Source of the DNA: an uncultured Paraprevotella sp.
GTDB lineage: Bacteria; Bacteroidota; Bacteroidia; Bacteroidales; Bacteroidaceae
Direction of reading: 5' to 3'
Assembly: GCA_944320765.1 (NCBI GenBank)
Contig: CALUIS010000011.1
Span: forward strand, 1 to 64,000
Length of the DNA stretch: 64,000 nucleotides
Positions within the stretch are counted from its first letter, which is position 1, and the number at the start of each line of letters is the position of its first letter. The notes under the pieces are model-generated. The model worked only from the letters and a program-made list of their open reading frames with translations. It was not told where the DNA came from and did not search any database. A program made the translations under genes and the position numbers. Below, piece after piece: positions 634-16,707 of this stretch.

Positions 634-668
634 CCCCTATTACCTATTTATAAATAAGGAGTAAAACT

Positions 669-893: not shown

Positions 894-921
894 TTGAACA
901 CGATATTTAAAATATACCATT

Positions 922-3354
922 GTGGAACTCAACTATAAAGAAATAGCTTATCTAATAGGTTGCTATGCCATCATTGAAGATAAAGAGATCAATTCTCGTG
1001 AGTTAACTGTGTTAAACGATTTTTTGCCATTGCAAAAAGACAGCTTGCTGTATGCCGAACGCAAGAAAATATTCCAAGACGATGAGACAAAAATTCCACT
1101 AAAAGAACTTATTGATAGGTCATCACATTTACACTTAAACAAAGAAAAGAGCGAAGAACTTGTCCATTTCCTCGTCCGCATATCCTATGCAGACTTTTAT
1201 ATGGATTCAAAGGAAAGAAATCTTGCAGAAAAAGTGGCTAAGATTCTTAATGTACCCTTTGCCCCTATTGCCGAATATGAAGCTTCAAACAACAGCAAAA
1301 GCATATCAGACAGCAAACTAAAATGGCATGAATCCTTATGGGGAAAAGTCGAGAATTTTACATACGGATTCTCGGATAAGAACGAAAAACGGACTGATAG
1401 AATTTTAGGCGGCTTAGGTTTTGCTGATATATTGGAAGAAGTAACAGAAGAGGCTTCAACTGACATGGAGAGAGTTTCCGGAATCTTGAATACAATCAAT
1501 GATGATTTAAAAAACTGCGCACAAGGCTTGAACCAATTTAGCCCCACAAAAAACAAAAGCAGGAAGGATTTCGACAAAATAAAAGAGACCATTGCGGAAA
1601 TCAACAAAGAATTCAATCAGACCATAAACGAATCCGTATCACAAAACATAGAACTTTTGGACAAGAAAAAACGCAATATCCACTACTTCACCATTGCGTT
1701 TATGGGAAGGACAAAAGCGGGGAAAAGTACATTGCACAAAGTAGTGACGCAACAAAACGATGACGACATAGGCATAGGTAAACTGCGCACCACAAGGTAC
1801 AACCGCAGCTGGTACTGGGACAGATTACGGATTGTAGACACTCCGGGTATTGGTGCGCCAGGCGGGGAAGTTGACACAGAAATAGCAAAATCAATAATTG
1901 ATGAAGCAGACATGATTTGCTACATCGTGACAAGCGACTCCATACAGGAGACCGAATTTGATTTCTTTGAAACAATAAAAGATCGCAATAAGCCATTATA
2001 TATTATACTGAATTACAAAAGCAACCTTTCTGGCATTCGTCTAAAAAAATTCTTAGAGGCCCCCACCGACTGGAAAGATTGTAAAGGCCCGCAATCCATC
2101 GAAGGACATTTCAAGCGCATCGAAGAACGGCTAAGCGGTAAGTACAACATGGACGCCGTTGCAATCATCCCCTTACATCTATTGGCGGCACAATTATACG
2201 TAGAAGGCGGATTTGACGCTGAAATTTTAGAGAAATTAAAGACAGGTTCAAATATCACCTCTTTTATCAGAACGATAAAGGAAGAAATTTACAACACCGG
2301 TTGTCTAAAGAAAAGCCTAAGCATTATAGACGGGTCTTCATATAACATCCATCAAGTAAACGCCCGGATAAAGGCGGACTGCGATAGATTAAGGGAAGAT
2401 GCCAGTTTGCTGGAAAAAACAAGAGAAAAAATAAGCTCCTTTTTCTCAAATGAAAGAGGCAAACTCACGAGTCAACTATCCAGTATCACGGACTCTGTCA
2501 GGCAGGAACTTAAAAATAGGGCAAATACATTTTCTAACGAAAACTATGACAACGAAAATGCCGGTGCAGCATGGGAGAATGACTCTGTGGTGAAAAACAT
2601 TCTCGAACGTTATAAAGAAAGGATATCTGATTGTATCGAGGATTTTAAATCCAAACTAAAATCTGAATTAGAGGAAGTTACAAGTGATTTGCAGATACAT
2701 TTCAGATTCACCTCGTTCCAAAATATCAAAGGATCATCCATTAGTAACACACGGCTTGGAGTTGGCATTTTTGGAAGTATTTTAACGGCTGCAGCCCCAT
2801 TCATAATCTCACAGTTATGGCATCCTGGTGGATGGATCGCAGCGGCTGGGACAGCCGTTGTCGGAGTGATTGTTTCAATCTTTACCAGTTTGTTCACATC
2901 AAAAAGTGAAAAGATCAGAAAAGCCATAAACAAAATGAGAGAGCAGCTCGAAAAAGGCATTGATGAGAATATGAGCAAAAACAAAAATACCCTACTGGCA
3001 AATATAAACAGTTCCATAAACAGTGCATCCCAGGAGATCAATAATGCTTTTGTTGCCTACATTACTGGTGCTAATGACATTCTTAACGAGATGGATACGC
3101 TACTCAAGAAATGTGACAAATCAGAAAATGCAATTAACTCATTAATCGGTTTCAGAATTCTTGATTATGTCAGAAAGAACAAAGTGAAAGGCAAGAAGAT
3201 CAAGGATATGGCAAATGAATTTCTGATTGAGAACTACCCGGTAGAAAGAGATTGGACAAATCACTCTCTGACCTACAAATACGCCAATGCTTGTAATGAG
3301 AATGATAAAATGAAAGCCGAAAAGGCAACTCAAATGACTATTAACTTCAAATAA
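922..3354 (+). CDS. dynamin-like GTPase with TerB-like N-terminus
   Basis: An 810-residue protein starting at GTG (922). Residues about 1-120 are helical, acidic and resemble the TerB/tellurite-resistance fold (paired segments with D-x-E-I-N and D-S-K-E-R-N). A coiled segment follows. The GTPase core shows a P-loop GRTKAGKST at 262-270 and the switch-II/G3 motif DTPGIG at 306-311; the G4 motif is unclear. The C-terminal half is long and helical and contains a glycine/alanine-rich hydrophobic hairpin at about 611-658, followed by more coiled coil. This is the layout of bacterial dynamin-like membrane-remodelling GTPases: G domain, helical stalk, membrane-inserting paddle. Bacterial dynamins usually act as tandem partners, and a second GTPase begins 9 bases after this stop, so a hetero-complex is likely (inference). 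TerB-like domains are known from stress and phage-conflict loci. Cellular role unproven. Confidence 0.75.
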   Translation: MELNYKEIAYLIGCYAIIEDKEINSRELTVLNDFLPLQKDSLLYAERKKIFQDDETKIPLKELIDRSSHLHLNKEKSEELVHFLVRISYADFYMDSKERNLAEKVAKILNVPFAPIAEYEASNNSKSISDSKLKWHESLWGKVENFTYGFSDKNEKRTDRILGGLGFADILEEVTEEASTDMERVSGILNTINDDLKNCAQGLNQFSPTKNKSRKDFDKIKETIAEINKEFNQTINESVSQNIELLDKKKRNIHYFTIAFMGRTKAGKSTLHKVVTQQNDDDIGIGKLRTTRYNRSWYWDRLRIVDTPGIGAPGGEVDTEIAKSIIDEADMICYIVTSDSIQETEFDFFETIKDRNKPLYIILNYKSNLSGIRLKKFLEAPTDWKDCKGPQSIEGHFKRIEERLSGKYNMDAVAIIPLHLLAAQLYVEGGFDAEILEKLKTGSNITSFIRTIKEEIYNTGCLKKSLSIIDGSSYNIHQVNARIKADCDRLREDASLLEKTREKISSFFSNERGKLTSQLSSITDSVRQELKNRANTFSNENYDNENAGAAWENDSVVKNILERYKERISDCIEDFKSKLKSELEEVTSDLQIHFRFTSFQNIKGSSISNTRLGVGIFGSILTAAAPFIISQLWHPGGWIAAAGTAVVGVIVSIFTSLFTSKSEKIRKAINKMREQLEKGIDENMSKNKNTLLANINSSINSASQEINNAFVAYITGANDILNEMDTLLKKCDKSENAINSLIGFRILDYVRKNKVKGKKIKDMANEFLIENYPVERDWTNHSLTYKYANACNENDKMKAEKATQMTINFK

Positions 3355-3362
3355 ATAGAACA

Positions 3363-5060
3363 ATGTACGAAACAATCAATTATGCCAAATATCAACAACG
3401 GCTTGAGCAATTGATATTGAAGACTAAAAAGTTGTTGGCACAAACTGACAACAGTGACTTAGCGCAGAAAATGGATACCGAATTGCAAGAAGTCAGTGAG
3501 CGTAAAGAATTGCGATTAGCATTTGTCGGACAATACGGGTCAGGAAAGTCAACCATCATATCGGCATTGACCGGCAACAAAGACATTCTGATTGATGCCA
3601 ATATCTCTACCGACAAAGTCACTGAATACAGATGGAACAATATTGTTCTAATGGATACCCCAGGAATCTTAGCAGGCAAGGTCGAAGAGCATGACGAAAG
3701 AACCAAAGCCGCGCTAAAAGAGTGCGACCTGATTTTTTATGTATTAACCAGTCAACTATTTGATGACGTCATTTTTAATAACTTCATTGATCTGGCATAT
3801 AATCAGCACTTGGCAGACAAAATGTTCATTGTTGTAAACAAAATGAATATGGAGTATGGAGATTACGCCCAACTCGTACAAAACTACACCGCTTCTTTGC
3901 ACAACACGTTTAAAGAACGCGGCTATGATTTCTCGGCTTTCCCCATCGCCTTTATCGATGCAAACGATTACTTGGAGGGCGTCAAAGACGGAGATGATGA
4001 ATTTATACAAGTCAGCAATTTTGAAAAGTTTATCAATGATCTTAACTCTTTCGTAAGCAGCAAAGGACTTATCAAAAAGCAATTCGATACGCCTGTCCGT
4101 GTACTGCAAAGTTATGCAAAAGACATTGCCATCTCGGAAGTAGACCAAAATCTGGCTGAATTTTACCGCCAATTTGAGCAGAGGTTAAGCATTAGCGAAA
4201 GAGAACTCAAACGCGATGTTTCCAATGTGCTCTATTCTTTTGAGACAGATGCAATGACAAAAGTTTCAGCCCTGTCCAGTGGAATCGGCTCTTTAGGAGA
4301 AGCAGAATGGAAAGTTCAACAAGAAGAGTTGAACAGGGCATTACAGCAAAGCATAAATACAACTTCCACAAAGATTGAGAAGGTGGTAGAACAAAACTAT
4401 GCGGATTTATTAAAAGAAGTGGAGGACTTCGGCCATAGAGACACTCTTGCCAAATATATCAGCAGTATAGACGCCAAACTCAATTCCCCAAATATCAGCA
4501 TAGAAGAGAGGAACAACCTCAACTCTCAAAAAAGAGCATTAGACTGGCTTAAATCGGGTGCGACAAAGATTGGAGATATGGCACCTGGTGTTAACGGCGT
4601 TTTTGGAGGAATCAGTAATGCCTCAGGTTCTCAATTACATAACATAGTGCTAAATGTCGGACATTTCTTCGGGAAAAGTTTTAGACCGTGGGAGGCTGTC
4701 AGATGGGCCAGCAATATTGCCAAAGTAGCAAAATTCGGGATTCCCGTAGTTACAGCAGGAATAGACATCTGGATGCAGTTGCGTGAAGAGAAAAAGGAGA
4801 ACGAGAGATTGCAACAAATCAAAGAATCCAAGAATCAATTCATCACTGGCTACCAAGGAGAGCTGAACAAAGCCAAGGGACAATTTGAAGATTATCTGAA
4901 TACGGTATTGAAGAATTACCGAGACAAGCGCAATGATGTAAATAAGTCAAAGGACGAAATCATCAGAGCCTCAAAACGTAATGACTCCATCAATAAATCC
5001 ATAAATGAATTAGAAGGAGAATACGTAGATTTTATAGAAATGATTGAGGAAGACAAATAA
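3363..5060 (+). CDS. dynamin-family GTPase, partner of the upstream GTPase
   Basis: A 565-residue protein with P-loop GQYGSGKST at 56-64, DTPG at 98-101 and NKMN at 159-162, where the family usually has NKxD; the final Asp is replaced by Asn, which could alter nucleotide specificity or affinity. Long helical and coiled segments flank a moderately hydrophobic stretch near residues 410-465 (GHFFGKSF..., FGIPVVTAGIDIW), a candidate membrane-contacting paddle. The overall plan resembles the LeoA-type bacterial dynamin-like proteins. It is separated from the upstream GTPase by 8 bases, so translation is probably coupled. Both genes are AT-rich compared with the rest of the window. Possible roles are membrane repair, vesicle release or phage defence; the sequence does not decide among them. 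Confidence 0.72.
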   Translation: MYETINYAKYQQRLEQLILKTKKLLAQTDNSDLAQKMDTELQEVSERKELRLAFVGQYGSGKSTIISALTGNKDILIDANISTDKVTEYRWNNIVLMDTPGILAGKVEEHDERTKAALKECDLIFYVLTSQLFDDVIFNNFIDLAYNQHLADKMFIVVNKMNMEYGDYAQLVQNYTASLHNTFKERGYDFSAFPIAFIDANDYLEGVKDGDDEFIQVSNFEKFINDLNSFVSSKGLIKKQFDTPVRVLQSYAKDIAISEVDQNLAEFYRQFEQRLSISERELKRDVSNVLYSFETDAMTKVSALSSGIGSLGEAEWKVQQEELNRALQQSINTTSTKIEKVVEQNYADLLKEVEDFGHRDTLAKYISSIDAKLNSPNISIEERNNLNSQKRALDWLKSGATKIGDMAPGVNGVFGGISNASGSQLHNIVLNVGHFFGKSFRPWEAVRWASNIAKVAKFGIPVVTAGIDIWMQLREEKKENERLQQIKESKNQFITGYQGELNKAKGQFEDYLNTVLKNYRDKRNDVNKSKDEIIRASKRNDSINKSINELEGEYVDFIEMIEEDK

Positions 5061-5267
5061 CAATAGATCTCAAGAAACACCTATGCACCAGTTGCAGAGC
5101 GTGTTTCAAGATACCCTACAGGGAACATATGATAACCGTCCTGTCCATGCCATACATAGAAATGCTTGAAGTGAAAGAGCATCCGCACATGACTTGTAAT
5201 TTTGTTTGGGAAGCTGACGGAAAGAGTCTATCGGAGTATTTGGGAGAGGATGGAAGAAAAGAAATAA
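5061..5267 (+). pseudogene. degenerate copy of the zinc-ribbon gene
   Basis: This stretch repeats the 3' part of the zinc-ribbon gene at 669-893. At DNA level, 5181-5260 aligns with about 785-870: both read gcatccgcac, then TTTGGGAAGCTGACGG versus TTCGGGAAGTTAACGG, then TATTTGGGAGAGGATGGAA. In translation a first frame gives CTSCRACFKIP, matching CTRCGEKFKAP of the intact gene. The match then continues in another frame (LFGKLTERVYRSIWERMEEKK), so a frameshift and an in-frame TGA have broken it. The first CxxC pair survives but the second is lost. I read it as a decayed duplicate left at the far end of the GTPase pair. Confidence 0.7.
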
Positions 5268-5285
5268 AATTAAAAATTCAGCCCT

Positions 5286-5459
5286 ATGAATAGCAATGCA
5301 ATAACGACAACCAAAGTATTAGAAATGGCGAAAAATGGCTGGGATGCCATTGTAGAAATGTATAAGCAATCTACTCCTGAGCAAAGAGAAAAGATCTTGA
5401 AAATTTTAGGAGGAATAGCCGGATTTAGTGCTTTGCTGAAATATTTGAAAAGCTTATAA
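5286..5459 (+). CDS. 57-residue micro-protein, helical, hydrophobic C-terminus
   Basis: Runs from ATG 5286 to TAA 5457-5459. The N-terminal half is hydrophilic and helical (VLEMAKNGWDAIVEMYKQS), and the C-terminal third is a short hydrophobic segment with glycines (KILGGIAGFSALLKYLKSL) that could form an amphipathic or membrane-dipping helix. It lies on the same strand as the GTPases and is followed by further micro-proteins. I do not recognise a family. The composition and membrane-seeking tail suggest a small partner of the membrane-active GTPases, which is inference only. Confidence 0.5.
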   Translation: MNSNAITTTKVLEMAKNGWDAIVEMYKQSTPEQREKILKILGGIAGFSALLKYLKSL

Positions 5460-5519
5460 TAAGCCTATTTAGGTTAAAAGGATTTTGAAGCCATCGATGC
5501 AGCCATCGCCAACAACAAC

Positions 5520-5645
5520 ATGGAAGCACTGGCCCTCATGTTGCAAAGCGTCAACACGTTAGCGGCACAATCACCATTCAAAGCTTTGGTTGATCTGGCG
5601 CAGGTGAAGCAAAACTTTTTAACCAGTGACGAAATAGAAATCTAA
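5520..5645 (+). CDS. 41-residue small ORF, possibly the tail of a truncated gene
   Basis: An open frame reading MEALALMLQSVNTLAAQ then KALVDLAQVKQNF, ending at TAA 5643-5645. The same frame is open upstream for about 13 more codons (DFEAIDAAIANNN) back to a stop just before 5480, without an ATG. This suggests either that the true start is the ATG at 5520 or that the frame is the C-terminal remnant of a longer helical protein. No domain recognised. Low confidence as a functional gene. Confidence 0.3.
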   Translation: MEALALMLQSVNTLAAQSPFKALVDLAQVKQNFLTSDEIEI

Positions 5646-5674
5646 AAATTGTAATAACATAAACTGAATGAACT

Positions 5675-5809
5675 ATGAGCAAGAATAGAAAAATGGGAGC
5701 ACTCAAAGATGTGAATCCTGACGATGTAGTGGATTTGGTAAAAACGGCAGGCAAAATTATCCGTGATTTATTAAAAAAAGACAATACGGATAAGCAGAGT
5801 AAGAAATGA
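5675..5809 (+). CDS. 44-residue lysine-rich micro-protein
   Basis: Runs from ATG 5675 to TGA 5807-5809. The sequence is strongly basic at both ends with a central segment VDLVKTAGKIIRDLLKK that would make an amphipathic helix. It follows two other small frames on the same strand between the GTPase pair and the glycine-rich membrane protein. There is no recognisable family. Amphipathic micro-proteins of this kind can bind membranes or act as small toxins or antitoxins; nothing in the sequence decides this. Confidence 0.45.
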   Translation: MSKNRKMGALKDVNPDDVVDLVKTAGKIIRDLLKKDNTDKQSKK

Positions 5810-5941
5810 GGCTCATTAGATCCGACTATCAAAGTTGGATAAGTTTTGGTTTCAAAATACGGTGTATCCCTTACTGAAAAGGATTTGCAGTTGTTCTGAC
5901 AATTCGCAGGTAAAATAAATCTTAGTTAAAATGAGACAACA

Positions 5942-6310
5942 ATGGTAACAGTATATACAAAAGAAGAATTGGAGCAAGCCCTGAGAGCGAAAGAATCTCA
6001 TATTCGAATAAAAGGAGAATTAGCCGAAGTCATAAAGAAAAAAGTCAAAAGGCAGAAAACGGCTAAGAAAATCGGTATAGGAACTGCCGCCATAGGTGCT
6101 GCAGCATTAATCGCAGCTCCTCTGACAGGCGGCGCATCATTGATAGCTGGGGCAGGGGCGACAGCAATGGGATTAACCGTTGGCACTGTTACTATCACTG
6201 TGGCTGAATTAGCCATTTTGGTTGGAGGGACTGTTGCAATTACAGCCCTTTTAAAAGGGTATAAAAAAGTAAAGATGAATTCCGATGGTAGTATAGAACT
6301 TGAAAAATAA
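5942..6310 (+). CDS. small glycine-rich membrane protein (glycine-zipper-like)
   Basis: A 122-residue protein with a charged N-terminal part (EELEQALRAKE..., about 1-45, basic near the end) followed by two adjacent hydrophobic segments rich in Gly, Ala and Thr (about 46-75 and 80-102), then a short charged tail KKVKMNSDGSIELEK. The hydrophobic part, with GAAALIAAPLTGGASLIAGAGA and GTVTITVAELAILVGG, looks like a helical hairpin with glycine-zipper packing, as seen in small pore-forming or membrane-anchoring proteins. It has no signal peptide. It lies between the micro-proteins and the nuclease module, on the same strand. Function is unknown; a membrane partner of the GTPases or a stand-alone effector are both possible. 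Confidence 0.55.
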   Translation: MVTVYTKEELEQALRAKESHIRIKGELAEVIKKKVKRQKTAKKIGIGTAAIGAAALIAAPLTGGASLIAGAGATAMGLTVGTVTITVAELAILVGGTVAITALLKGYKKVKMNSDGSIELEK

Positions 6311-6320
6311 ATATAATCGT

Positions 6321-6488
6321 ATGGGAAATAAAAGTTGGGGTGGCGGTTATAACCAAGGAGTAGACGACGGTTATGACATGGCCAAAAATGAGTTCAAAGA
6401 TAAGACAAAGCTTGACTTTGACACATTAATGAAGATTGCCGACAAAGTAGGAAAAGTGCTCGGACATTTTTCAAAAAAGAAAGGGTAA
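6321..6488 (+). CDS. 55-residue small protein, Gly/Asp-rich start
   Basis: I chose the ATG at 6321 (MGNKSWGGGYNQGVDDGYD); an ATG at 6300 would overlap the end of the upstream gene by 11 bases and add seven residues. The N-terminus is rich in Gly, Asp and Tyr; the remainder is a charged helix (LDFDTLMKIADKVGKVLGHFSKKKG). No family recognised. It is the last of the run of small genes downstream of the GTPases, before the composition shifts to more GC-rich at the nuclease gene. Confidence 0.45.
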   Translation: MGNKSWGGGYNQGVDDGYDMAKNEFKDKTKLDFDTLMKIADKVGKVLGHFSKKKG

Positions 6489-6526
6489 GACTATGAGTAC
6501 AAATTAATCAACTTCAAAAAAAGTAT

Positions 6527-6988
6527 ATGGAAACCTTCAGAAAGAAAATCCAGCAAACGACAGGATGGTCGGATGCTATCGTCAACGCCATCCAGAGTGA
6601 AGACGAAGCGCGTATCTACATCGGTGCAGGACTGAAAGAAGCCATCGTCAATGGCAGACCGGCATTGATACAGCCCCGGATAGACCCGGACTATCAGATG
6701 CCGGAATGGTGGATAAAGGAACATGGAGAAAAATGGCGCGGATGGACGAACAGCGATTTGATGGGCGAAGGGTATCCTCCACACGATGAAAACGGAGACC
6801 CTTACGAACTGCACCACATCGGGCAACTGACCGATTCGCCTCTTGCCGAACTGACCTGGTCGCAACACCGGGAGGGGAAAAACTTTGCGGTGCTGCATAC
6901 TACCGAAGACTACTCGGACATTGACCGCGGAGCATTCGAGAAAGAGAAAGCCGCGCACTGGATGGCAAGGCATCGAACGAAAGCGTAG
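6527..6988 (+). CDS. LHH-type HNH/Endo VII nuclease, toxin-like
   Basis: A 153-residue protein whose C-terminal half (about 80-150) matches the HNH/endonuclease VII superfamily pattern of polymorphic-toxin nucleases: the motif PYELHHIGQ with the catalytic-type histidine pair at 96-97, then DSPLAELTW, an H-x-E segment, and a terminal IDRGAFEKEKAAHW block. This arrangement is typical of LHH nuclease domains found at the C-termini of secreted polymorphic toxins. Here the domain is almost free-standing: the first 75 residues contain no signal peptide, PAAR, Rhs or RHS-repeat part. Two paralogous genes follow immediately and are the best candidates for immunity proteins. The gene is visibly more GC-rich than the GTPase genes upstream, so it probably arrived separately. 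Confidence 0.75.
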   Translation: METFRKKIQQTTGWSDAIVNAIQSEDEARIYIGAGLKEAIVNGRPALIQPRIDPDYQMPEWWIKEHGEKWRGWTNSDLMGEGYPPHDENGDPYELHHIGQLTDSPLAELTWSQHREGKNFAVLHTTEDYSDIDRGAFEKEKAAHWMARHRTKA

Positions 6989-7052
6989 CAACGGAATACG
7001 GCACCACCGGAAATGAATTTATAATGAACCTCATGTGAAAGGGCTGACGCAA

Positions 7053-7778
7053 ATGAAATACAGAGACGGATATTTATGCGGACAAGACGACCTGGACCGG
7101 CTACCTGTGGACATTCTGGAGGACATCATCATCCGCATCTACCAAGACGACTACCTGAGCCGTGACGCCAAGCAGGAACTGCTGAAAGACTATCTGGACG
7201 AACGGAAGAACAAGCTGGACAAGGCTTTCCTGTACACAGACGAAAACCTGAAACGCCTGCGGGAGATGAACGGACTGATAGAACAGCAAAGCATCGAAGC
7301 CATACGCACGGCATACCGGATCTACCAAGATGAACTGGCGGAGAAGACCGCACATCCCGACACTTATACGGATATGGAAATCAAGCCCATACTGAAAGTG
7401 CCCGCCGACATCTATTATCAGGAAAAACCGGATTGCGTCTTCACGGAAAAGGAAGAGCGGATATGGGACGTGCTCTGTTCGCCACACAACAGGGATTACC
7501 GGACGTTCGGAATGCTTTCCACGGTGACCGACTTCTGCACTTCCCGGCCTGAGGCGGACTGTGAAGCCGTCATACGCGAATGTGTCTATGGCTGCATGGG
7601 CGAGGAAGAGTTCACCAGTTGGGGCGACGTGATGTGCCTGGACCGGGAGAAAGTGAAAGACATCCTCATCGTCCGCCCTTTTCACAACATTTATGACTTC
7701 TGCGGATTCGCCATGACGGATTTGCTGAAAGTCCAGAAGTTTCACCTTGAGATAGAACTGACCGATGAAATACTATAA
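7053..7778 (+). CDS. putative immunity protein, first of two paralogues
   Basis: A 241-residue cytoplasmic, acidic, largely helical protein. I prefer the ATG at 7053 over a GTG at 7035, because MKYRDGY then aligns with the start MKYYKGY of the next gene. The two proteins are paralogues: DDYLSRDAKQELLKDYLDER aligns with DKFVCESDKTWLMDKYKEER, LDKAFLYTDENLKRL with LDANFSFIDGNRRRL, and FTEKEERIWDVL with YGDDERDLWNIC. The position directly after a toxin-type nuclease, with a 14-base overlap to its paralogue, is what is expected for immunity genes, which are often duplicated. I do not recognise a named family, so the function is inferred from context only. Confidence 0.55.
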   Translation: MKYRDGYLCGQDDLDRLPVDILEDIIIRIYQDDYLSRDAKQELLKDYLDERKNKLDKAFLYTDENLKRLREMNGLIEQQSIEAIRTAYRIYQDELAEKTAHPDTYTDMEIKPILKVPADIYYQEKPDCVFTEKEERIWDVLCSPHNRDYRTFGMLSTVTDFCTSRPEADCEAVIRECVYGCMGEEEFTSWGDVMCLDREKVKDILIVRPFHNIYDFCGFAMTDLLKVQKFHLEIELTDEIL

Positions 7779-8418
7779 AGGGTATCCCGAAGAGATGAAG
7801 ATAGACGGACAGGCCGTCACCCTGCACGATGCGGAACGGACCATGCTTTCCCTTTATTGGGACAAATTCGTCTGTGAGTCGGACAAAACATGGCTGATGG
7901 ACAAATACAAAGAAGAGCGCATGAATTATCTGGATGCCAACTTCAGCTTCATTGACGGCAACCGTCGTCGACTGAAAAAAGTGGAACAACTCTGGATAAA
8001 CGCCCGGCAGCGGATGGAGAACCTCAGCCAACGGATGGGCGAGCGCGAACAAGAAAAGTTCCGACGGGGAGAAAGAAGTGCCGATCAACTGCGGGTGCAC
8101 ATAGAGGTTTGGAATCTGGAAGACACGGAAGAGGTCAGTTATGGGGACGATGAGCGGGATTTGTGGAACATCTGCTTTGGTGAAGATAGGAATTACCACA
8201 GCTATTGGGGATTCTTATGCGAAAGTATTGGCATCCACGAAAAGGAAAACACGACGTATGTCCGTCCCCACGTCAGTCCCCTATCTGCCGATTGTAAAGA
8301 TTGGCCTGCTAGTTTAGACTGCGATTTCCTCCGTCTGAAAGCCCACTATCAGGTTTCCTGGCAAGATATGCTGAAAATCTCTCGGTTCTATGTGACAGTC
8401 GATATGCATTACAAGTAA
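7765..8418 (+). CDS. putative immunity protein, second paralogue
   Basis: A 217-residue protein starting at ATG 7765, inside the last codons of its upstream paralogue (14-base overlap), so translation is likely coupled. It shares a helical N-terminal half with its neighbour, and a C-terminal half containing an E/D-R-x-x-W core and a final F-Y/H-V/L-x-V/I strand. It lacks signal peptide and membrane segments. It may be immunity to a divergent nuclease variant, as often seen where toxin tips are swapped and old immunity genes are kept. It is the last gene before the tRNA-Met remnant that ends the accessory region. Confidence 0.5.
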   Translation: MKYYKGYPEEMKIDGQAVTLHDAERTMLSLYWDKFVCESDKTWLMDKYKEERMNYLDANFSFIDGNRRRLKKVEQLWINARQRMENLSQRMGEREQEKFRRGERSADQLRVHIEVWNLEDTEEVSYGDDERDLWNICFGEDRNYHSYWGFLCESIGIHEKENTTYVRPHVSPLSADCKDWPASLDCDFLRLKAHYQVSWQDMLKISRFYVTVDMHYK

Positions 8419-8662
8419 ATCGTACTTTTTCAGACCAAATATAACGAACTTTCTCCTAATGCATTAATAAAGCTATGATGATATGTATCCAACGAGCTTA
8501 ATAGTAACATTTACCTCCCTAATTCTGCGTAAACAATGCGTAAACAAACGGTTTCAGTTAGGGGTATTTAGTGAGTTTTATAGGAGATAGTAAAATTCGT
8601 AACTATCTGTTACTTAATTAATATTAGTAAATCGAACTATCACAGAAAATCATCTTATCGTT
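8419..8662. other. AT-rich terminus of the accessory element, no gene
   Basis: This stretch contains no supportable gene. It is AT-rich and holds a tandem repeat, TGCGTAAACAA, at 8526-8536 and 8537-8547; a third copy lies beyond the tRNA remnant at 8755. It ends directly at the anticodon loop of the truncated tRNA. Its composition and position mark it as the end of an integrated element, the kind of place where a tyrosine recombinase binds. Confidence 0.45.
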
Positions 8663-8704
8663 CTCATAATCTGGAGGTCCCAGGTTCAAGCCCTGGCTGG
8701 TCCA
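8663..8704 (+). repeat. 3' half of tRNA-Met (candidate attachment site)
   Basis: The sequence is a perfect tRNA 3' half. It has anticodon loop CTCATAA (8663-8669, anticodon CAT), a 3' anticodon-stem strand TCTGG, a five-base variable loop, T-stem CCAGG/CCTGG enclosing the loop TTCAAGC, acceptor strand CTGGTCC and discriminator A. The partner strand CCAGA expected before the anticodon loop is absent (the bases are atcgtt), and no D-arm or 5' acceptor strand GGACCAG lies upstream. It is therefore not a functional tRNA. Truncation exactly at the anticodon loop is the usual crossover product of a tyrosine-recombinase element that integrates into a tRNA and restores an intact copy at its other end. 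Confidence 0.85.
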
Positions 8705-8715
8705 CGTTAAGAATC

Positions 8716-8746
8716 AAGCACTTACGAGCAACCGCAAGTGCTTTTT
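8716..8746 (+). terminator. rho-independent terminator behind the tRNA remnant
   Basis: The stem AAGCACTT/AAGTGCTT, extended by CG pairs around the loop AGCAAC, is followed by a run of six T. It is presumably the original terminator of the tRNA-Met gene. Confidence 0.75.
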
Positions 8747-8769
8747 TCTTTGTCTGCGTAAACAATGCG

Positions 8770-9758
8770 GCTGTAGGGATACAACGGGACGGGATTCCCG
8801 CCGTGCAAGTGCCAGAATGCCGCCAAATCCCGGCATTTCCTGTCAGAATGGAAGGTTTTCCGCATAGTCCCGCGTCTCCATGGAGGGACGGAAAGACGCA
8901 AACAGGTCCCGAACTGTTAAAAAACGGACGCGAGAACTGCCCGTATGAAGCATTTCTCCGCCATAGCATCCGTTTTCGTGCGGCAAAAACGGGATTTCTT
9001 TGCTGAAAGAAATTTCTTTCTTGCCGCAAAGACGAAAATTTCTTGCCGCAAAGAGATCCACGGAAGTGTGGAAAAAGGCAAAAAAGCGGGGCTGCGGACG
9101 TTTTTCCCGCCTGGTTGGGGGCCGCCCGCGTGCAAAACCCGCCTGACGTTTTGCAAGGCTTCCTCCCCGTCCGGACGACGCAGGAACGGCATCCGTCCGC
9201 ACGGCGTCCCGCCACGGGCGGCAAAGTGTCGCGCAAACCCGGGCTACGGCTTTCACCCTGCGTTCCCGTGGACCCGCGAGGTTCGCACATTTCCGTCCGT
9301 CCCCGCCCTTGCGCCCGTCCGCGCGATTCTCGCGGGGCCGGTTTTGACGTTTTGACAAAATGTATTTTGGATTTCCGTCGCCCGCCGGGCTTCCAGAAGG
9401 GCGCCGGACGGGAAAGCCGTCGATGCCGCCGGGAGACGGAAGCAGTCGTGGACGTCGAACTCGCGCCTGCCTGATGAAGCCCGGAAGCAACATGACACCC
9501 GTGGGAAAAAGCGGGAACCCTTGAAGGAATCCCCCCAAAAGAAACCTTACACCGGAAAGAGGACACGTCCCCATCACAGACTTTCCCACCTAACGTTTTT
9601 CGTGTGATTCTCTCGCTGGAATATTCTCCAAAAAGACTTTTTAGTTCCTTATTCCTCCCTTTTTCCTTTGACAATTTGCAGATTCCGCTTTTTTTTGCGA
9701 ATATTGCAACACTTTTCGGAAGGACCACAAACCCCGAAGCCAAAGAAGACTACAAAAT
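8770..9758. other. long gene-free stretch with palindromic repeat
   Basis: About 1 kb with no believable gene. Open frames exist on both strands because the sequence is GC-rich, but they are rich in Arg, Pro and Cys, overlap one another and show no domain. The stretch contains a repeat element around 8993-9054 that recurs at 59,799-59,855. Shortly before the phosphatidyltransferase gene the sequence becomes AT-rich (from about 9600), where its promoter should lie, although I see no clean TAnnTTTG. Confidence 0.5.
8993..9054. repeat. dispersed palindromic repeat, copy A
   Basis: It contains TCTTTGCTGAAAGAAAT (8997-9013) and, twice, a segment TTTCTTGCCGCAAAG. The 29 bases at 9026-9054 are the exact reverse complement of 59,799-59,827 (copy B), and the 17 bases at 8997-9013 recur in direct orientation at 59,821-59,837. 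It is a non-coding repeat family of unknown nature. Confidence 0.7.
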
Positions 9759-10700
9759 ATGACATCATCCACACTCAAAGAACGTGTACAGGCCACGATG
9801 AAATCGGAAGATACGGAAGGGGCTTTCGAACTTTACGTCACACGCACACCGGGTTATCTTTGGGCCCTGCTCTTCAAAAAGCTGCACGTCCATCCCATCG
9901 CCGTCACGTTGATGTCCATTGCCATTGGCGCATTGGCCGGCTACTTTTTCTGGCCGGAGGACATCTGCATGAACCTCATCGGGATGTTCCTCCTCGTGTG
10001 GGCCAACTGGTACGATTGCGCCGACGGGCAGCTGGCCCGCATGACCGGGCAGAAGACGCTCATCGGGCGCATCCTCGACGGGTTCGCGGGAGACGTGTGG
10101 TTCTTCTCCATCTATCTTTTCCTCAGCCTCAGGCTTACCCACGAAACCGCCCCCTGGGGGACGCCGTGGGGCATCTGGATCTGGCTGATTTGCGCTTACT
10201 CCGGTTTTCACTGCCATTCCAAGCAATGCGCCTTGGCCGACTATTACCGCAACATCCACCTCTATTTCCTGAAGGGGGAATCCGGAAGCGAGCTGGACTC
10301 CTACGCCCAACAACGGGAACTGATGCGGTCGCTTCCTTGGGACCGCAAGGAATGGTTCCACAAAATCTACCTCTATTTCTACGGCAACTACACGCGGGGG
10401 CAGGAGCGGCAGACCCCGAAATTCCAGAAGTTCTACGCATTGGTGCGCCAACGCTATCCGGACGGCATCCCCGCGCCGCTCAAGGAAAGGTTCCGTGCGG
10501 CCAGCCTCCCGCTGATGAAATATGCCAACATCCTGACATTCGACGCACGGGTCATCGTTTTGTTCCTCTCACTTTTGATTAACATGCCGTGGCTCTATCT
10601 CGCCTTTGAGATATTCGTACTCGAAGCCTTGCGCTACTACACGCGGCATGTTCATGAGGCCTTCTGCGAACAGTTCACAAAGGAATTGGAGAATGGATAG
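9759..10700 (+). CDS. CDP-alcohol phosphatidyltransferase family membrane protein
   Basis: A 313-residue membrane protein. It contains the family signature starting at D86: D86-x-x-D89-G-x-x-A-R94, then eight residues, G103-x-x-x-D107. The last aspartate is at 112, giving D-x4-D where the family normally has D-x3-D. Several hydrophobic segments flank the motif (about 53-70, 72-84, 113-130, 138-155, 260-285). The enzyme class transfers a phosphoalcohol between CDP-alcohol and another alcohol in the inner membrane. The next gene, a cytidylyltransferase of the IspD/TarI type, overlaps by eight bases and could supply the CDP-activated substrate. That makes synthesis of an unusual phospholipid or polyol-phosphate headgroup plausible (inference). 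Confidence 0.8.
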   Translation: MTSSTLKERVQATMKSEDTEGAFELYVTRTPGYLWALLFKKLHVHPIAVTLMSIAIGALAGYFFWPEDICMNLIGMFLLVWANWYDCADGQLARMTGQKTLIGRILDGFAGDVWFFSIYLFLSLRLTHETAPWGTPWGIWIWLICAYSGFHCHSKQCALADYYRNIHLYFLKGESGSELDSYAQQRELMRSLPWDRKEWFHKIYLYFYGNYTRGQERQTPKFQKFYALVRQRYPDGIPAPLKERFRAASLPLMKYANILTFDARVIVLFLSLLINMPWLYLAFEIFVLEALRYYTRHVHEAFCEQFTKELENG

Positions 10701-11418
10701 CAAGACACTTCACATCGCATTGCTGCTGGCCGGCGGGCAAGGACACCGCATGCACAGCGACCGCCCCAAGCAATTCATCGAGGTGGAAGGGATGCCGGTC
10801 ATCTCCTACACGATGCAGGCTTTCCAGCAGCACCCTGAGATCGACCGCATCTACGTGGTCTGCAATCCGGAATGGGCCGGTTTCGTGGAAGCCACCGCCT
10901 GGAAAGGAGACATCGGGAAATTCAGCGGCGTGTTCCCGGCCGGAGAAACGAGCATCGACTCCCTGCGGAACGGCATCGCAGGGCTGAATGCCGCCATCGC
11001 CGGCCAGAACCCGGTAGTCCTGACGCATGAGGCCGTACGCCCGCTCGTGTCAACCGAAATCATCAGCCGCAACCTTCAAACCTTCCGCACGTACGGCAAC
11101 GCCGTCACTGCCGTTCGGAGCAACGAGGCTTACATGGTAAGCCCCGGCGGCACATATTCGGAAGAAAGCATCCCGCGCGAGCTGTTGTTCCGGGCGCAGA
11201 CCCCCATCACTTTCAGCCTCGACGAACTGGCCGACGCATTCAACCAAGCCGAACGGGTGAAGCTCCGCCGCTCGCAGTCCCTCTACACGCTGGTCGCGGA
11301 AGTGTTCCCGTCCAAAAGGCTTTATATTTCCCCGGGGTCGGAACGGAACTTCAAGCTGACCTTGCCTGAAGACATCAACACGCTGAAAGCCCTGCTGGCC
11401 TACCGCAAAAAGGACTAA
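10693..11418 (+). CDS. IspD/TarI-like cytidylyltransferase
   Basis: A 241-residue nucleotidyltransferase starting at ATG 10693, inside the end of the phosphatidyltransferase (shared ATGGATAG). The N-terminus carries the CTP-binding signature LLAGGQGHRM with the following RPKQF, and the centre has an HEAVRPLVS block, the equivalent of the family's HDaaRP segment. These are hallmarks of 2-C-methylerythritol 4-phosphate cytidylyltransferase (IspD) and of the related polyol-phosphate enzymes such as TarI. The translational coupling to a CDP-alcohol phosphatidyltransferase argues for the second role, making a CDP-polyol, but an isoprenoid function cannot be excluded. I therefore give no gene symbol. 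Confidence 0.8.
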   Translation: MDSKTLHIALLLAGGQGHRMHSDRPKQFIEVEGMPVISYTMQAFQQHPEIDRIYVVCNPEWAGFVEATAWKGDIGKFSGVFPAGETSIDSLRNGIAGLNAAIAGQNPVVLTHEAVRPLVSTEIISRNLQTFRTYGNAVTAVRSNEAYMVSPGGTYSEESIPRELLFRAQTPITFSLDELADAFNQAERVKLRRSQSLYTLVAEVFPSKRLYISPGSERNFKLTLPEDINTLKALLAYRKKD

Positions 11419-11438
11419 TCCGGCCCAAAGGCACCGGA

Positions 11439-12569
11439 CTACTTTTCCTTCCCCTCAAAGTACCCGTGCCGCAAACGCCAAGCGTAATGCCACATCTTGA
11501 ACAGCGGGCTCCACAACACTTCCTCAGGATAGTCTGAAAGGAACCGCATGTTGCGCCCCACCTTGCGGCGGAAGCGGTGGAATGCCGACTCCCCGGCCTT
11601 GCGCCGTATGCGTTCATCATACTGCCCGAAATTCCCGGCCAGCAACACCTCGTCCAGCAGCCGTTTGCCGTACCTCCCGGAAGGCTCCACCAGCAAATGC
11701 CCGTCCGCCATCCCGAACACTTCCTGCAGCACGTACATCACCGCCGACGCGAAACGCTTGAGATGCAGCCGTTCCAACGCCTGCACCGCCTCCTTACGGT
11801 CGGCCTCGGAACAAGGCTGGCGCAATACGAAGTAATAGTCCAGCAACTGGCGCAACCCGATTCCTTCATCAAAGAGATGGCGGTAAATATGCACCAGCAA
11901 ATAAATCCGGTTCATCGCCAAGGTAGGGACAGACACCTCGCCCACACGTTCCGGCAACTGCACCTTATGGAGCAGGGAATAGGGCTTCCATTCCGCGAAA
12001 TAACGCTGCAGCCTGCGGTTCATCCCCCAGCAGTTCATCCACGAGGGGGTGAAATGCAACTCGACGGGAATGTCTTTCACCACGGGAAAATCCACATGGT
12101 GATACACCACTTCCACGCCGGGGCAATACTTCCTCGCATAATCCACCACCCGCTTGCGCCCGGCATCCATCCACAGGTCGATATCACCCGGCGTGCGATG
12201 CAACGGCCGGAGATAAAACGCCGCGTTCCCCTGCCCCTTGAGCAGGACCGTCCCCATGCCTTCCTGGGCGAACTTGTCACATATCATCACTGCCGCCCGG
12301 TTCAACTTCCGGTTGGCGGCCTCCACCTGCTGCACCAGCCCGATCCAAGGCATCACCACGTCCGCAGGCGGTTTCTGCATGATGGACAGGCGCTCCACGC
12401 CGTCAAGCACAATGGGGGCGAGGGCATGCCTGCGCCCCAGTTCATACACAGCCGCCCAGCCGGCCTTGTCCAACTTCACGTCCCGGTCATGGCACGTCCC
12501 TATGCCCAACCGGAGCAATTTGAAAAAAGCCTCCCCGGGCTGCATGTATTTCTTTTGTCCTGCCTTCAT
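11439..12569 (-). CDS. nucleotidyltransferase family protein (NTP_transf_5 type)
   Basis: A 376-residue protein with the pattern of the uncharacterised nucleotidyltransferase family PF14907. Around residues 100-130 it has VLLKGQGNAAFY, then RTPGDIDLWMD, where the paired aspartates would bind metal. A helical C-terminal part follows with FRRKVGRNMRFLSDYP and repeated basic-aromatic motifs. Members are often near polysaccharide or lipid biosynthesis genes in Bacteroidetes, but substrates are unknown. It is convergent with the cytidylyltransferase gene (20 bases between stops), so it is a separate unit. It is the only gene of its transcript, preceded by a TATCTTTG-type promoter. Confidence 0.8.
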   Translation of the reverse strand: MKAGQKKYMQPGEAFFKLLRLGIGTCHDRDVKLDKAGWAAVYELGRRHALAPIVLDGVERLSIMQKPPADVVMPWIGLVQQVEAANRKLNRAAVMICDKFAQEGMGTVLLKGQGNAAFYLRPLHRTPGDIDLWMDAGRKRVVDYARKYCPGVEVVYHHVDFPVVKDIPVELHFTPSWMNCWGMNRRLQRYFAEWKPYSLLHKVQLPERVGEVSVPTLAMNRIYLLVHIYRHLFDEGIGLRQLLDYYFVLRQPCSEADRKEAVQALERLHLKRFASAVMYVLQEVFGMADGHLLVEPSGRYGKRLLDEVLLAGNFGQYDERIRRKAGESAFHRFRRKVGRNMRFLSDYPEEVLWSPLFKMWHYAWRLRHGYFEGKEK

Positions 12570-12759: not shown

Positions 12760-13545
12760 ATGAAAAAGCTAAAAACCATGGGCGCGGCCACAGTCGCCCT
12801 CATCATGGCAAGCAGCTGCGGAAGCAGCAGGAACGCATTACAAACCAGCGCATTGGAAGGAGAATGGAACATCATGACGGTCAACGGGCAGAAAGCCGAA
12901 GCCGAAAAGGCACCTTATATAGGAATGGACTTGCAAAAAAAACGGCTGTACGGCTGTGCGGGGTGTAACCGCATAATGGGTTCGCTCCAGATAGACTCGC
13001 TGCAGGCCGGCCGCCTGTCATTCGCCCAGATAGGTTCCACACGGATGCTCTGTGCCAACATGGAAACCGAACGCGCCGTACTGGAAGCCCTGGACCAGGT
13101 GGCGGAATACGAGGGGACGGAAGAGGAACTGACCCTGACGGACGACAAGGGACACGCCTTGCTCACCTTGAGCAAACGCCCGGCATCCACCCTGGCCTCC
13201 CTCAGCGGGCCGTGGGACATCGCGCAAGTATACGGCCAAGCCATAGACAGCATCGAGAAGACCGACAAAAGACCGTTCCTGGAATTCGACGCAGACAAGA
13301 AGACCGTACACGGCAATGCCGGATGCAACATCGTGAACGGCGGCTTCACCCAAAAGGAAGGCTTGCCTGCCTCGCTGGAATTCGGCCAGTTGATTTCTAC
13401 CATGATGGCCGGACCGGGCATGACGTTGGAACGGCAGGTGCTGGACGCGATGAACAACGTGAAAAGTTTCGTTGTCAAGGACACCCAGACTGCTGCCTTG
13501 CTCGATGAGAACGGCGAAGAGGTGCTGACCCTGAAGAAACCTTGA
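12760..13545 (+). CDS. lipoprotein with two META domains
   Basis: A 261-residue protein. The N-terminus MKKLKTMGAATVALIMASSC is a lipoprotein signal with the lipobox cysteine at residue 20, so it is probably anchored in the outer or inner membrane facing the periplasm. The mature part contains two tandem META domains (about 30-125 and 140-258). Each has a W-x-I start, a G-x-x-G-C-N motif (LYGCAGCNRIMG and VHGNAGCNIVNGG) and the T-R-x-x-C or T-M-M-A segment followed by a helix and two strands. META domains occur in the heat-shock protein HslJ and in surface lipoproteins; some are linked to stress or antibiotic tolerance. The gene is monocistronic with a clear promoter. Confidence 0.85.
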   Translation: MKKLKTMGAATVALIMASSCGSSRNALQTSALEGEWNIMTVNGQKAEAEKAPYIGMDLQKKRLYGCAGCNRIMGSLQIDSLQAGRLSFAQIGSTRMLCANMETERAVLEALDQVAEYEGTEEELTLTDDKGHALLTLSKRPASTLASLSGPWDIAQVYGQAIDSIEKTDKRPFLEFDADKKTVHGNAGCNIVNGGFTQKEGLPASLEFGQLISTMMAGPGMTLERQVLDAMNNVKSFVVKDTQTAALLDENGEEVLTLKKP

Positions 13546-13624
13546 TTTCTTCAGGGGCGGCACCCCCTTCTAATCTAAAAAACAAGCCATAAAAACGAAT
13601 CGAACCGCCCAAAGGACAAGCAAG

Positions 13625-14233
13625 CTACAGCAGCAGCTCCCCCTTTCCCTGTCGGACGATGTCGAACGCGTCGTCCACGCAGTCCACCACGGTGGAAGCT
13701 TCCGCGCCGCCGTAGCCTCCGTCGATGACCAAAGCCACCTTCGGGCCGTACTTCTCATGAATCAACTCCGGGTCGGTGGTATATTCCATTACCTCATCCT
13801 CGTCATGCACAGACATGGTGAGGACAGGATTCCCCAACTCGGCCACCAGTCCCCGCGCGATATTGTTGTCCGGCACACGGATACCTACCTCCTTCTTATT
13901 CTTATATAATTTAGGCAGACGGCTGCTCGTGGGCAGGATGAATGTGAAAGGCCCCGGCAGGTTCTTCTTCAGCAGTTTGAAGGCGGCGTTGCTCACCTGC
14001 GCGTACTCGCTGATATTGGACAGGTCGTAACAGATGATGGACAAGTTGCTCTTTTGCGGGTTCACCCCCTTCAAGGCACAAAGTTTCTCCACGGCCCGCA
14101 CGTTGAGCGCGTCGCACCCGATGGCATACACCGTGTCCGTGGGATACACGATCAGTTCCCCGTCCCGCAATGCCTTCAGGGCCTTGGCCATCTCCCGGGG
14201 ATTGGGATTTTCCGGATAAATTCTAATCAACAT
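13625..14233 (-). CDS. YciO/Sua5/YrdC-family protein
   Basis: A 202-residue protein of the YrdC-like fold. It has the N-terminal ATP/threonine-binding motif GELIVYPTDTVYAIGCDA, the K-x-R-like segment (LKGVNPQKSNLSIICYDLSN), LPGPFTFIL, GIRVPDN and the closing PVLTMSV and GGYGGAEASTVVD blocks. Sua5/TsaC proteins make threonylcarbamoyl-AMP for tRNA t6A37 modification. The overall order and the CYDLS/PGPFTFIL region resemble E. coli YciO, a paralogue whose in vivo role is less certain. It has no Sua5 C-terminal domain. Divergent from the malic enzyme gene. Confidence 0.85.
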   Translation of the reverse strand: MLIRIYPENPNPREMAKALKALRDGELIVYPTDTVYAIGCDALNVRAVEKLCALKGVNPQKSNLSIICYDLSNISEYAQVSNAAFKLLKKNLPGPFTFILPTSSRLPKLYKNKKEVGIRVPDNNIARGLVAELGNPVLTMSVHDEDEVMEYTTDPELIHEKYGPKVALVIDGGYGGAEASTVVDCVDDAFDIVRQGKGELLL

Positions 14234-14256
14234 GGCTGTTTCTGGTTTAAGCCTTG

Positions 14257-14264
14257 CAAAGGTA
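14257..14264 (-). promoter_or_regulatory. -7 element TACCTTTG of the YciO-like gene
   Basis: The minus strand reads TACCTTTG (TAnnTTTG consensus), 24 bases before the start codon. Confidence 0.5.
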
Positions 14265-14346
14265 TCATTTTCTTTTGGTTTGTCCGCAATGGAATTACAA
14301 TATAATGAAAAACACGAGAGTAATACTTCAAAATATAATTTTTTCG

Positions 14347-14354
14347 TATCTTTG
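14347..14354 (+). promoter_or_regulatory. -7 element TATCTTTG of the malic enzyme gene
   Basis: TATCTTTG lies 42 bases before the ATG at 14396 in an AT-rich intergenic region. No clear TTTG -33 element is seen. Confidence 0.55.
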
Positions 14355-14395
14355 CGTACAGTTTAGACGTAAAAGATACACCAAAACAGGACAAC

Positions 14396-16687
14396 ATGGC
14401 AAAAATCACCAAAGAAATGGCTTTGCGCTATCATGAACAGGGCAAGCCGGGAAAAATCGAAGTGGTGCCCACCAAGCCCCACAGCACACAGACAGACTTA
14501 TCGCTGGCCTACTCCCCCGGGGTGGCCGAACCATGCCTCGAGATTCAGAAGAACCCGCACGATGCCTACCGCTATACGGCGAAAGGCAACCTCGTGGCCG
14601 TCATCTCCAACGGCACGGCTGTCCTCGGACTGGGCGACATCGGCGCGTTGGCCGGCAAACCCGTGATGGAAGGCAAGGGCCTGCTCTTCAAGATATACTC
14701 CGGCATCGACGTGTTCGACATCGAGGTCAACGAGAAAGACCCGGAGAAATTCATCCAGGCCGTGAAGGCCATCGCCCCCACCTTCGGCGGCATCAACCTG
14801 GAGGACATCAAGGCCCCGGAATGCTTCGAGATTGAACGACGGCTGAAAGAGGAGCTGGACATCCCCGTCATGCACGATGACCAGCACGGCACGGCCATCA
14901 TCTCCAGTGCCGGACTGCTGAACGCTCTGGAAGTGGCCGGAAAGAAGATTGAGGACGTAAAGATTGTGGTGAACGGCGCAGGCGCGTCCGCCGTTTCCTG
15001 CACCAAGCTGTATATCTCGCTGGGCGCACGCCTCGAGAACATCCTGATGCTGGACAGCAAGGGGGTCATCACCAAGGAGCGTACCGACTTGAACGAGCAG
15101 AAGCGTTTCTTCGCCACCGACCGCACGGACGTGCATACGCTGGCCGAAGCCATCAAGGGAGCGGACGTGTTCCTCGGCCTGTCGCGCGGCAACGTGCTGA
15201 CGCAGGACATGGTACGCAGCATGGCCCCCTCCCCCATCGTGTTCGCGTTGGCCAACCCCGTGCCTGAGATTTCATACGAGGATGCCATGGCCTCACGCCC
15301 CGACGTGCTGATGGCCACGGGCCGTTCGGACTATCCCAACCAGATCAACAACGTCATCGGCTTCCCCTACATCTTCCGCGGCGCACTCGACACGGGTGCC
15401 ACCGCCATCAACGAGGAGATGAAGCTGGCCGCCGTACGCGCCATCGCCGGCATCGCCAAGAAGCCCGTACCCGATGTGGTGAACGCGGCCTACCACGTGA
15501 ACAACCTCACGTTCGGCCCCTCTTACTTCATCCCCAAGCCCGTAGACCCGCGCCTCATCACCGAGGTGTCCATGGCCGTGGCCAGGGCCGCCATGGAAAG
15601 CGGCGTGGCCCGCAAACCCATCGAGGACTGGGACGCCTACGCCCTGCACTTGCGGGAACTGATGGGCTACGAATCCAAGCTGACCCGCCAGCTGAGAGAC
15701 GCCGCCCGCCGCGACCCGCAGCGCGTGGTGTTCGCCGAGGGCATTCACCCGAACATGCTGAAGGCCGCCGTAGAGGCCAAGGCCGAAGGCATCTGCAAGC
15801 CCATCCTGCTGGGAAACGACGAGCGCATCGCCAAACTGGCCAAGGAACTGGACCTCAGCCTGGACGGCATCGAGGTCATCAACCTCCGCCACGACGACGA
15901 GGCCGAACGCCGCGAACGCTACGCCAAGATTCTGGCCGAGAAGAAAGCCCGCGAAGGCTACACCTTCGAGGAAGCCAACGACAAGATGTTCGAGCGCAAC
16001 TACTTCGGCATGATGATGGTGGAGACGGGCGAGGCCGACGCCTTCATCACGGGCGTGTACACCAAATACTCCAACACCATCAAGGTGGCCAAGGAGGTCA
16101 TCGGCATCCAGCCGGGCTACAAGCACTTCGGCACCATGCACATCATGAACAGCAAGAAGGGAACTTACTTCCTGGCCGACACGCTCATCAACCGCCATCC
16201 GGACACGGAGACGCTCATCGACATCGCCCGTCTGTCCGAGAAGACCGTGCGTTTCTTCAACCATGAGCCGGTGATGGCCATGCTGTCGTACTCCAACTTC
16301 GGTACGGACAACAACGGCAGTCCGGCCAGCATGCACAAGGCCGTGGAATACATGCAGGCGAACTATCCCGACCTGGCCATCGACGGCGAGATGCAGGTGA
16401 ACTTCGCCATCAACGACAAGCTGCGCGACCGCAAGTACCCGTTCACCCGCCTGCAGGGCAAGGAAGTCAACACCCTTGTCTTCCCGAACCTGAGTTCCGC
16501 CAACGCGGGCTACCAGCTGCTGCAGGCCCTGAACGGCGACGAGATGGAGATGATTGGCCCCATCCAGATGGGCCTGAACAAGCCGATTCACTTCACCGAC
16601 TTCGAGAGTTCCGTGCGCGACATCGTGAACATCACGGCCGTGGCCGTCATCGACGCCATCGTGATGAAGAAGAAGCAAGGGAAGTAA
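14396..16687 (+). CDS. NADP-dependent malic enzyme with phosphotransacetylase-like domain
   Basis: A 763-residue cytoplasmic enzyme. Residues about 1-160 form the malic N-domain (AYSPGVAEPCLEI, and the LEDIKAPECFEIE metal-binding region), about 160-400 the NAD(P)-binding domain (HDDQHGTAI, VVNGAGASAVS, FALANPVPE). About 430-755 is a phosphotransacetylase-like domain (RVVFAEGIHPNMLKAA... and VNTLVFPNLSSANAGYQLLQ). This fusion is the MaeB type, which converts malate to pyruvate, CO2 and reduced cofactor. The PTA-like part is thought to be regulatory, sensing acetyl-CoA or related metabolites. The gene is a single transcript ending at a strong terminator. Confidence 0.93.
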   Translation: MAKITKEMALRYHEQGKPGKIEVVPTKPHSTQTDLSLAYSPGVAEPCLEIQKNPHDAYRYTAKGNLVAVISNGTAVLGLGDIGALAGKPVMEGKGLLFKIYSGIDVFDIEVNEKDPEKFIQAVKAIAPTFGGINLEDIKAPECFEIERRLKEELDIPVMHDDQHGTAIISSAGLLNALEVAGKKIEDVKIVVNGAGASAVSCTKLYISLGARLENILMLDSKGVITKERTDLNEQKRFFATDRTDVHTLAEAIKGADVFLGLSRGNVLTQDMVRSMAPSPIVFALANPVPEISYEDAMASRPDVLMATGRSDYPNQINNVIGFPYIFRGALDTGATAINEEMKLAAVRAIAGIAKKPVPDVVNAAYHVNNLTFGPSYFIPKPVDPRLITEVSMAVARAAMESGVARKPIEDWDAYALHLRELMGYESKLTRQLRDAARRDPQRVVFAEGIHPNMLKAAVEAKAEGICKPILLGNDERIAKLAKELDLSLDGIEVINLRHDDEAERRERYAKILAEKKAREGYTFEEANDKMFERNYFGMMMVETGEADAFITGVYTKYSNTIKVAKEVIGIQPGYKHFGTMHIMNSKKGTYFLADTLINRHPDTETLIDIARLSEKTVRFFNHEPVMAMLSYSNFGTDNNGSPASMHKAVEYMQANYPDLAIDGEMQVNFAINDKLRDRKYPFTRLQGKEVNTLVFPNLSSANAGYQLLQALNGDEMEMIGPIQMGLNKPIHFTDFESSVRDIVNITAVAVIDAIVMKKKQGK

Positions 16688-16707
16688 AAAACCTGCTACT
16701 GAATGAT

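Follow-up and report, generated by a model that had tools for sequence, protein, structure and literature searches.

A tRNA(CAT) 3' half in a gut Paraprevotella genome is very probably the distal scar of an element within an eroded stack

The 42 bases at positions 8663-8704 of the DNA analyzed here (the window, which is the first 64 kb of contig C11) are a genuine attachment-site scar, and very probably the distal scar of an element that entered a tRNA(CAT) gene at its anticodon loop, lying within an eroded stack. The source genome was assembled into 48 contigs with a total of 2.93 Mb, and its nearest named relatives are Paraprevotella species. This kind of event is already well known and its mechanism is standard; Islander records 2083 class A (anticodon-centred) islands and 125 tandem arrays (PMC4383910). 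Our sequence comparisons indicate a stack of two or more partly eroded elements rather than one clean island.

The initial annotation described a perfect tRNA 3' half that starts at the anticodon loop and has no 5' half, and this was borne out. The fragment CTCATAATCTGGAGGTCCCAGGTTCAAGCCCTGGCTGGTCCA (8663-8704, + strand) corresponds base for base to the final 42 positions of a tRNA(CAT) gene, running from the anticodon loop through the discriminator base, and the break falls precisely at the loop (CTCATAA). The bases on its 5' side (...ATCATCTTATCGTT) do not form a tRNA 5' half, and no intact tRNA was found by ARAGORN in the 64 kb of the window. When the whole genome was searched for the 42-base pattern with up to three mismatches allowed, two copies were found and both were perfect: the one in the window and one at C35:14828-14869, inside an intact tRNA(CAT) gene (C35:14796-14870) whose 3' part it forms; this gene lies 167 bp from the end of the 15-kb contig C35. 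The reversed pattern, used as a control, gave no match. The two copies are identical over 66 bp (8663-8728), comprising the 42 tRNA bases and 24 more, and past this point they stay nearly identical through a terminator hairpin. The pairing of a displaced fragment with an intact tRNA gene in one genome, by which Islander defines its islands, is thus seen here with both members perfect. The scar and the intact gene are on separate contigs and their linkage is not directly seen; the orientation of the flanks agrees with that in the related genomes G015 and G030.

The same 42-base sequence was found in 23 of the 61 genomes searched, the source genome included (up to three mismatches), and the reversed control gave no match in any of them; therefore, the exact match in the window is not a matter of chance. 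Cut copies of tRNA(CAT) were seen in 11 examined genomes, again including the source genome, with several different arm types, so that this tRNA(CAT) appears as a shared landing site. The initial annotation predicted an intact tRNA-Met(CAT), and an intact tRNA(CAT) does exist on C35, next to its conserved host neighbour. ARAGORN calls every CAT tRNA Met, and its "Met" here reflects the anticodon alone. The best near-full-length E. coli matches to the target tRNA are CAT tRNAs annotated as tRNA-Ile in RefSeq, and the source genome has a second CAT tRNA on C21. It is possible, judging from the sequences, that the "tRNA-Met" is a tRNA-Ile2; by overall identity the target gene is about equally close to both. 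Separately, in the records of four uncultured gut phages from human and pig faeces (NC_055895, NC_055899, NC_055903 and NC_055904) there is a tRNA gene 97.3% identical to the target tRNA over all 75 bases.

The left neighbour of the intact tRNA on C35 is a Ca2+-ATPase gene (named by eye from its sequence and not from a library match), and in many members of the genus a homologue of this gene adjoins an intact tRNA(CAT). Rightward of the scar, the first conserved chromosomal gene encodes a CDP-alcohol phosphatidyltransferase (9759-10700, + strand; Pfam PF01066), which occurs in nearly the whole genus. On one contig of G015 (C305), the Ca2+-ATPase gene, an intact tRNA(CAT) (5789-5863) and the CDP-alcohol transferase gene (from 6275, 411 bp downstream of the tRNA) follow one another in this order. 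G015 thus joins the neighbours found on C35 and C11 around one intact tRNA, which is the expected look of the unoccupied site. An intact tRNA at this place with the same left neighbours in relatives, which the initial annotation had named as the observation that would speak against its reading, was not seen; the left neighbours in G015 are chromosomal. Both versions of the site are therefore represented among the relatives, empty as the joined flanks of G015 and occupied as the complete elements of G030 and G010. In addition, G003 and G008 appear to form another pair of occupied and unoccupied sites at this tRNA: what follows the cut copy on its right side in G003 is similar to what follows the intact gene in G008.

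The 147 bp immediately before the scar (8516-8662, + strand) are the right (P) arm of an element, ending with ATCATCTTATCGTT just before the core, and are 81% identical to G030 L060:18573-18719. The end motif of this arm recurs in G017 and G024, and the border ATCGTT/CTCATAA is seen at cut copies in four genomes, G017 and G024 among them. G030 carries a complete element of ~17 kb on one contig (L060, C62), with the intact tRNA at L060:1721-1795, a relaxase gene at 10408-11619, a gene for a VapE-like protein at 13452-14819, a tyrosine integrase gene with Arm-DNA-bind_5 and SAM_5 domains at 16588-18090, and last the 42-bp scar (18720-18761). The element on G010:C3 is organized in the same way and spans 30 kb; its integrase (C3:65504-66925) is 49% identical and lies 280 bp before its scar at C3:67203. 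In both genomes the integrase is at the distal end and not beside the intact tRNA. In the variable part of the G030 element (L060:2265-8406), we noted by eye proteins resembling the products of abortive-infection, restriction-like and Fic-type genes. Taken together, the intact partner, the conserved host neighbour, the joined site of G015 and the complete elements in relatives support the earlier assignment of the fragment to integration by a tyrosine recombinase.

Further information comes from the repeats in the arms. The arm-type direct repeat TCTGCGTAAACAATGCGTAAACAAAC in the right arm of the window (8524-8549, + strand) is placed as in G030, and belongs to a 31-bp stretch that the left arm of the corresponding G024 element also has. 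Complete elements carry a common arm repeat at their two ends (23 bp in G030, 24 bp in G010 and 14 bp in G028, with shuffle maxima of 11-13); the rule has an exception in one G012 element, whose core has five mismatches and in which the pairing of arms was not seen. To the right of the scar, 8705-8769 (+ strand) is the left-arm remnant of a second element of the same type, consisting of the terminator hairpin (8716-8747) and the truncated repeat TCTGCGTAAACAATGCG (8753-8769), and 63 bp of it match, at 97% identity, what follows the intact tRNA of G024. The 17-bp repeat TCTGCGTAAACAATGCG is common to this remnant and the right arm (8524-8540), and its inner 15 bases occur genome-wide only at these two positions (up to one mismatch). 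The scar is therefore flanked by arms from two elements of one type, on its left side by a right arm and on its right side by a left arm that is cut off. G030 has the same arm-core-arm arrangement with a fuller left arm to the right of its scar. One interpretation, which we consider doubtful, is that the arm-core-arm sequence (8516-8769) amounts to an almost complete attP-like site, copied in the chromosome and left behind after the neighbouring element eroded.

Position 8704 had also been proposed as the clean right boundary of the accessory region, and this could not be upheld, because the left arm of another element follows immediately and is itself followed by a dispersed repeat. This repeat copy, ~550-600 bp long, occupies 8770-9375 (+ strand), outside the element. 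There are ~40 copies in the genome, mostly 71-83% identical, in a count for which not every candidate was scored; besides the copies at C28:13672-14279 and C13:59882-60480 there are some 38 others. Despite the divergence, core length stayed within 544-548 bp among the 22 copies measured; the core was aligned at 87% mean column identity and has a sharp right end (GACGTTTTGACAAAATG). The closest relative, G007, has the repeat at least 15 times at 71-74%, three other genomes gave weak short matches and the remaining genomes searched gave none, so that the repeat is abundant only in the source genome and G007. We tried to assign the repeat to an Rfam family, but only sub-threshold microRNA matches were obtained. 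A coding function was rejected as well, because no reading frame is conserved, most copies have stops in all six frames and the lengths of 544-548 bp do not go in multiples of three. The signal of a conserved RNA structure is weak (double changes in 15 of 131 pairs, covariation term -2.96), and a literature search on a Paraprevotella repeat returned no relevant paper. The minus-strand ORF at 8664-9743 crosses both the attachment site and the repeat and was not taken as a gene. The chromosome in common with G007 starts at ~9628, and the interval 8704-9628 is neither the left-hand element nor ordinary chromosome.

The position of this repeat raises the question of whether the right flank is original. 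A possibility that we take seriously without favoring it is that the scar, itself genuine, acquired its present right neighbour secondarily, when copies of the 550-bp repeat recombined and joined the stack to the CDP-alcohol transferase region. This concerns the right flank only and is compatible with a stack. One repeat copy directly separates the arm remnant from the conserved chromosome, and another lies just to the right of the tRNA-Phe gene on C28. In G007 it is tRNA-Phe, not tRNA(CAT), that lies 420 bp upstream of the transferase gene, and thiL and tRNA-Phe come before the transferase in both G007 and P. clara (G012). In the source genome thiL is on C1 and the two tRNA-Phe genes are on C28 and C19, all of them away from the transferase, so that the gene order here is not stable and was rearranged at least once. 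However, the intact tRNA(CAT) of G015 is directly upstream of the transferase with no repeat between them, so the present neighbourhood can be ancestral. In P. clara (L054, G012:C11) we also observed a region with integrase-like ORFs (3175-8700) between tRNA-Phe and the same transferase gene, and the neighbouring tRNA-Phe may also be a landing site.

The arms next to the intact tRNA differ from those next to the scar. On C35, the arms after the intact tRNA are of the GTGACC type (GTGACCTTCAGGTGACC), as against TGCGTAAACAATGCG in the window, where the right-end arm motif is TGCGTAAACAA; the left arm on C35 and the 500 bp to the left of the scar have no common match of 9 bp or more. Because of this difference, the intact tRNA probably borders an element other than that of the window, and in this respect the predicted partner departs from the initial annotation. 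A single element between C35 and the scar, bounded on one side by the intact tRNA with an adjacent integrase and ending cleanly on the other at 8704, would agree with the orientation and order of the scar and the intact tRNA, and since both contigs end inside repeats its middle could simply be unassembled. C35 runs into an ISL3-family insertion sequence (DDE_Tnp_ISL3, C35:14946-15037) 75 bp past the tRNA; this insertion sequence is present in several copies, at the ends of C33, C41 and C43 and complete in C34, and breaks the assembly. At the other side, the first 77 bases of the window are also present on C27 and at the end of C3, indicating that C11 starts in a repeat. We nevertheless consider a single element quite unlikely: the arms on C35 and in the window are unlike, although arms match within complete elements; a second left arm is present to the right of the scar; and the complete relatives with a window-type right end have a distal integrase.

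An integrase had been expected at the other end, but it was not found there: C35 stops in the insertion sequence, and the complete relatives carry the gene distally. It was not found just inside the right end of the window element either, where the last genes before the scar gave no family match. Among the scanned ORFs of window positions 1-8662 there was no tyrosine integrase and no relaxase; these 8.66 kb are the only part of the element assembled in place, and the interval to C35 is not fully assembled. No homologue of the G030/G010-type integrase was detected in the assembly at E<=1e-10. PF00589 gave six matches in the genome (on C15, C3, C30, C2, C44 and C9), none of them beside the scar or the intact tRNA. 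C44, which encodes a 401-aa integrase and a 450-aa efflux-pump-like protein, was considered as the missing left end and rejected, because genome-wide searches located no attachment core or window-type arm repeat there. As no matching integrase was found, the element has probably lost its own means of moving. The missing integrase, in the visible 8.66 kb and in the assembly, would also suit a decayed or duplicated tRNA pseudogene with no tie to integration, but such an origin is exceedingly improbable, as the 42 bases are perfect, cut copies in four genomes have the same ATCGTT/CTCATAA border, and the complete integrase-bearing elements of G030 and G010 end at the same cut.

For the recombinase step in this genome and the order of the eroded stack, we infer the following history. 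A tyrosine recombinase of the Bacteroidales Arm-DNA-bind_5/Phage_int_SAM_5 type would have inserted into tRNA(CAT), at the anticodon loop, an element that brought its own copy of the 3' half of the tRNA. Recombination between the carried copy and the gene would have rebuilt the full tRNA at one end, now on C35, and displaced the original 3' half to the window. The arm to the left of the scar would be the right end of one element, with Leo GTPases and an LHH nuclease as cargo, and the arm to its right would be the shortened left end of another such element, of which only ~65 bp remain beside the 550-bp dispersed repeat. The intact tRNA on C35 would border an element end with different arms. What speaks against a stack is that further scars would be expected between C35 and the window, yet only two copies of the core were found (up to three mismatches); the middle of the stack may be missing from the assembly, or its core may have diverged, as in G012 with its five mismatches. 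The location of the scar and the intact tRNA on different contigs and the rearranged gene order seen by comparison with G007 also count against the proposed history.

The site resembles several known systems. As in the class A islands of Islander (PMC4383910), a 3' fragment cut at the anticodon loop is displaced and an intact copy is present elsewhere in the genome; unlike them, the site has its two ends on different contigs and no integrase was found in its visible part, which keeps it from passing the Islander filters. The integrative and mobilizable element of G030, also from Bacteroidales, has in common with the window the tRNA, the 42-bp core, the right end (81% over 147 bp) and the position of the arm repeat, whereas on its right side it has the integrase, the relaxase and the VapE-like protein where the window has Leo GTPases and the LHH nuclease. 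ICECleSHZ29-like ICEs of Flavobacteriia, in the same phylum, are also found at the 3' part of tRNA-Met(CAT) (PMC12561888), but their repeat is 17 bp at the 3' end of the gene, as compared with 42 bp from the anticodon loop here. Tandem integration of Salmonella genomic island 1 (PMC2297512) is similar in that site-specific elements are stacked at one site, and differs in host, integrase and target and in that the stack here is eroded.

The cargo genes to the left of the scar, all on the + strand, include two for dynamin-like GTPases: a LeoBC type at 922-3354 (PADLOC LeoBC, E=9.1e-90; Pfam Dynamin_N) and a LeoA type at 3363-5060 (PADLOC LeoA, E=1.4e-89; Pfam Dynamin_N and DLP_helical). PADLOC is a library of known and candidate anti-phage systems, and we regard the adjacent LeoBC and LeoA genes as a candidate anti-phage system. 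A literature search on Leo returned nothing on these elements. The last named gene before the scar, at 6527-6988, encodes a protein with an LHH nuclease domain of the HNH/ENDO VII superfamily (Pfam PF14411, E=2e-17). It is followed by two overlapping ORFs (7035-7778 and 7765-8418) without a Pfam or PADLOC match at 0.01. The whole of 6527-8418 looks like a toxin fragment with possible immunity genes.

The scar fixes one end of an accessory region with Leo and nuclease genes in a gut Paraprevotella. If the attP-like site at 8516-8769 were confirmed, it might serve as a second docking site, at which further elements of the same family could stack without touching the tRNA gene. Comparison of arm repeats offers a simple way to tell an eroded stack from a single island where assemblies break, and a single tRNA(CAT) gene serves several types of element as their landing site throughout this family of gut bacteria.
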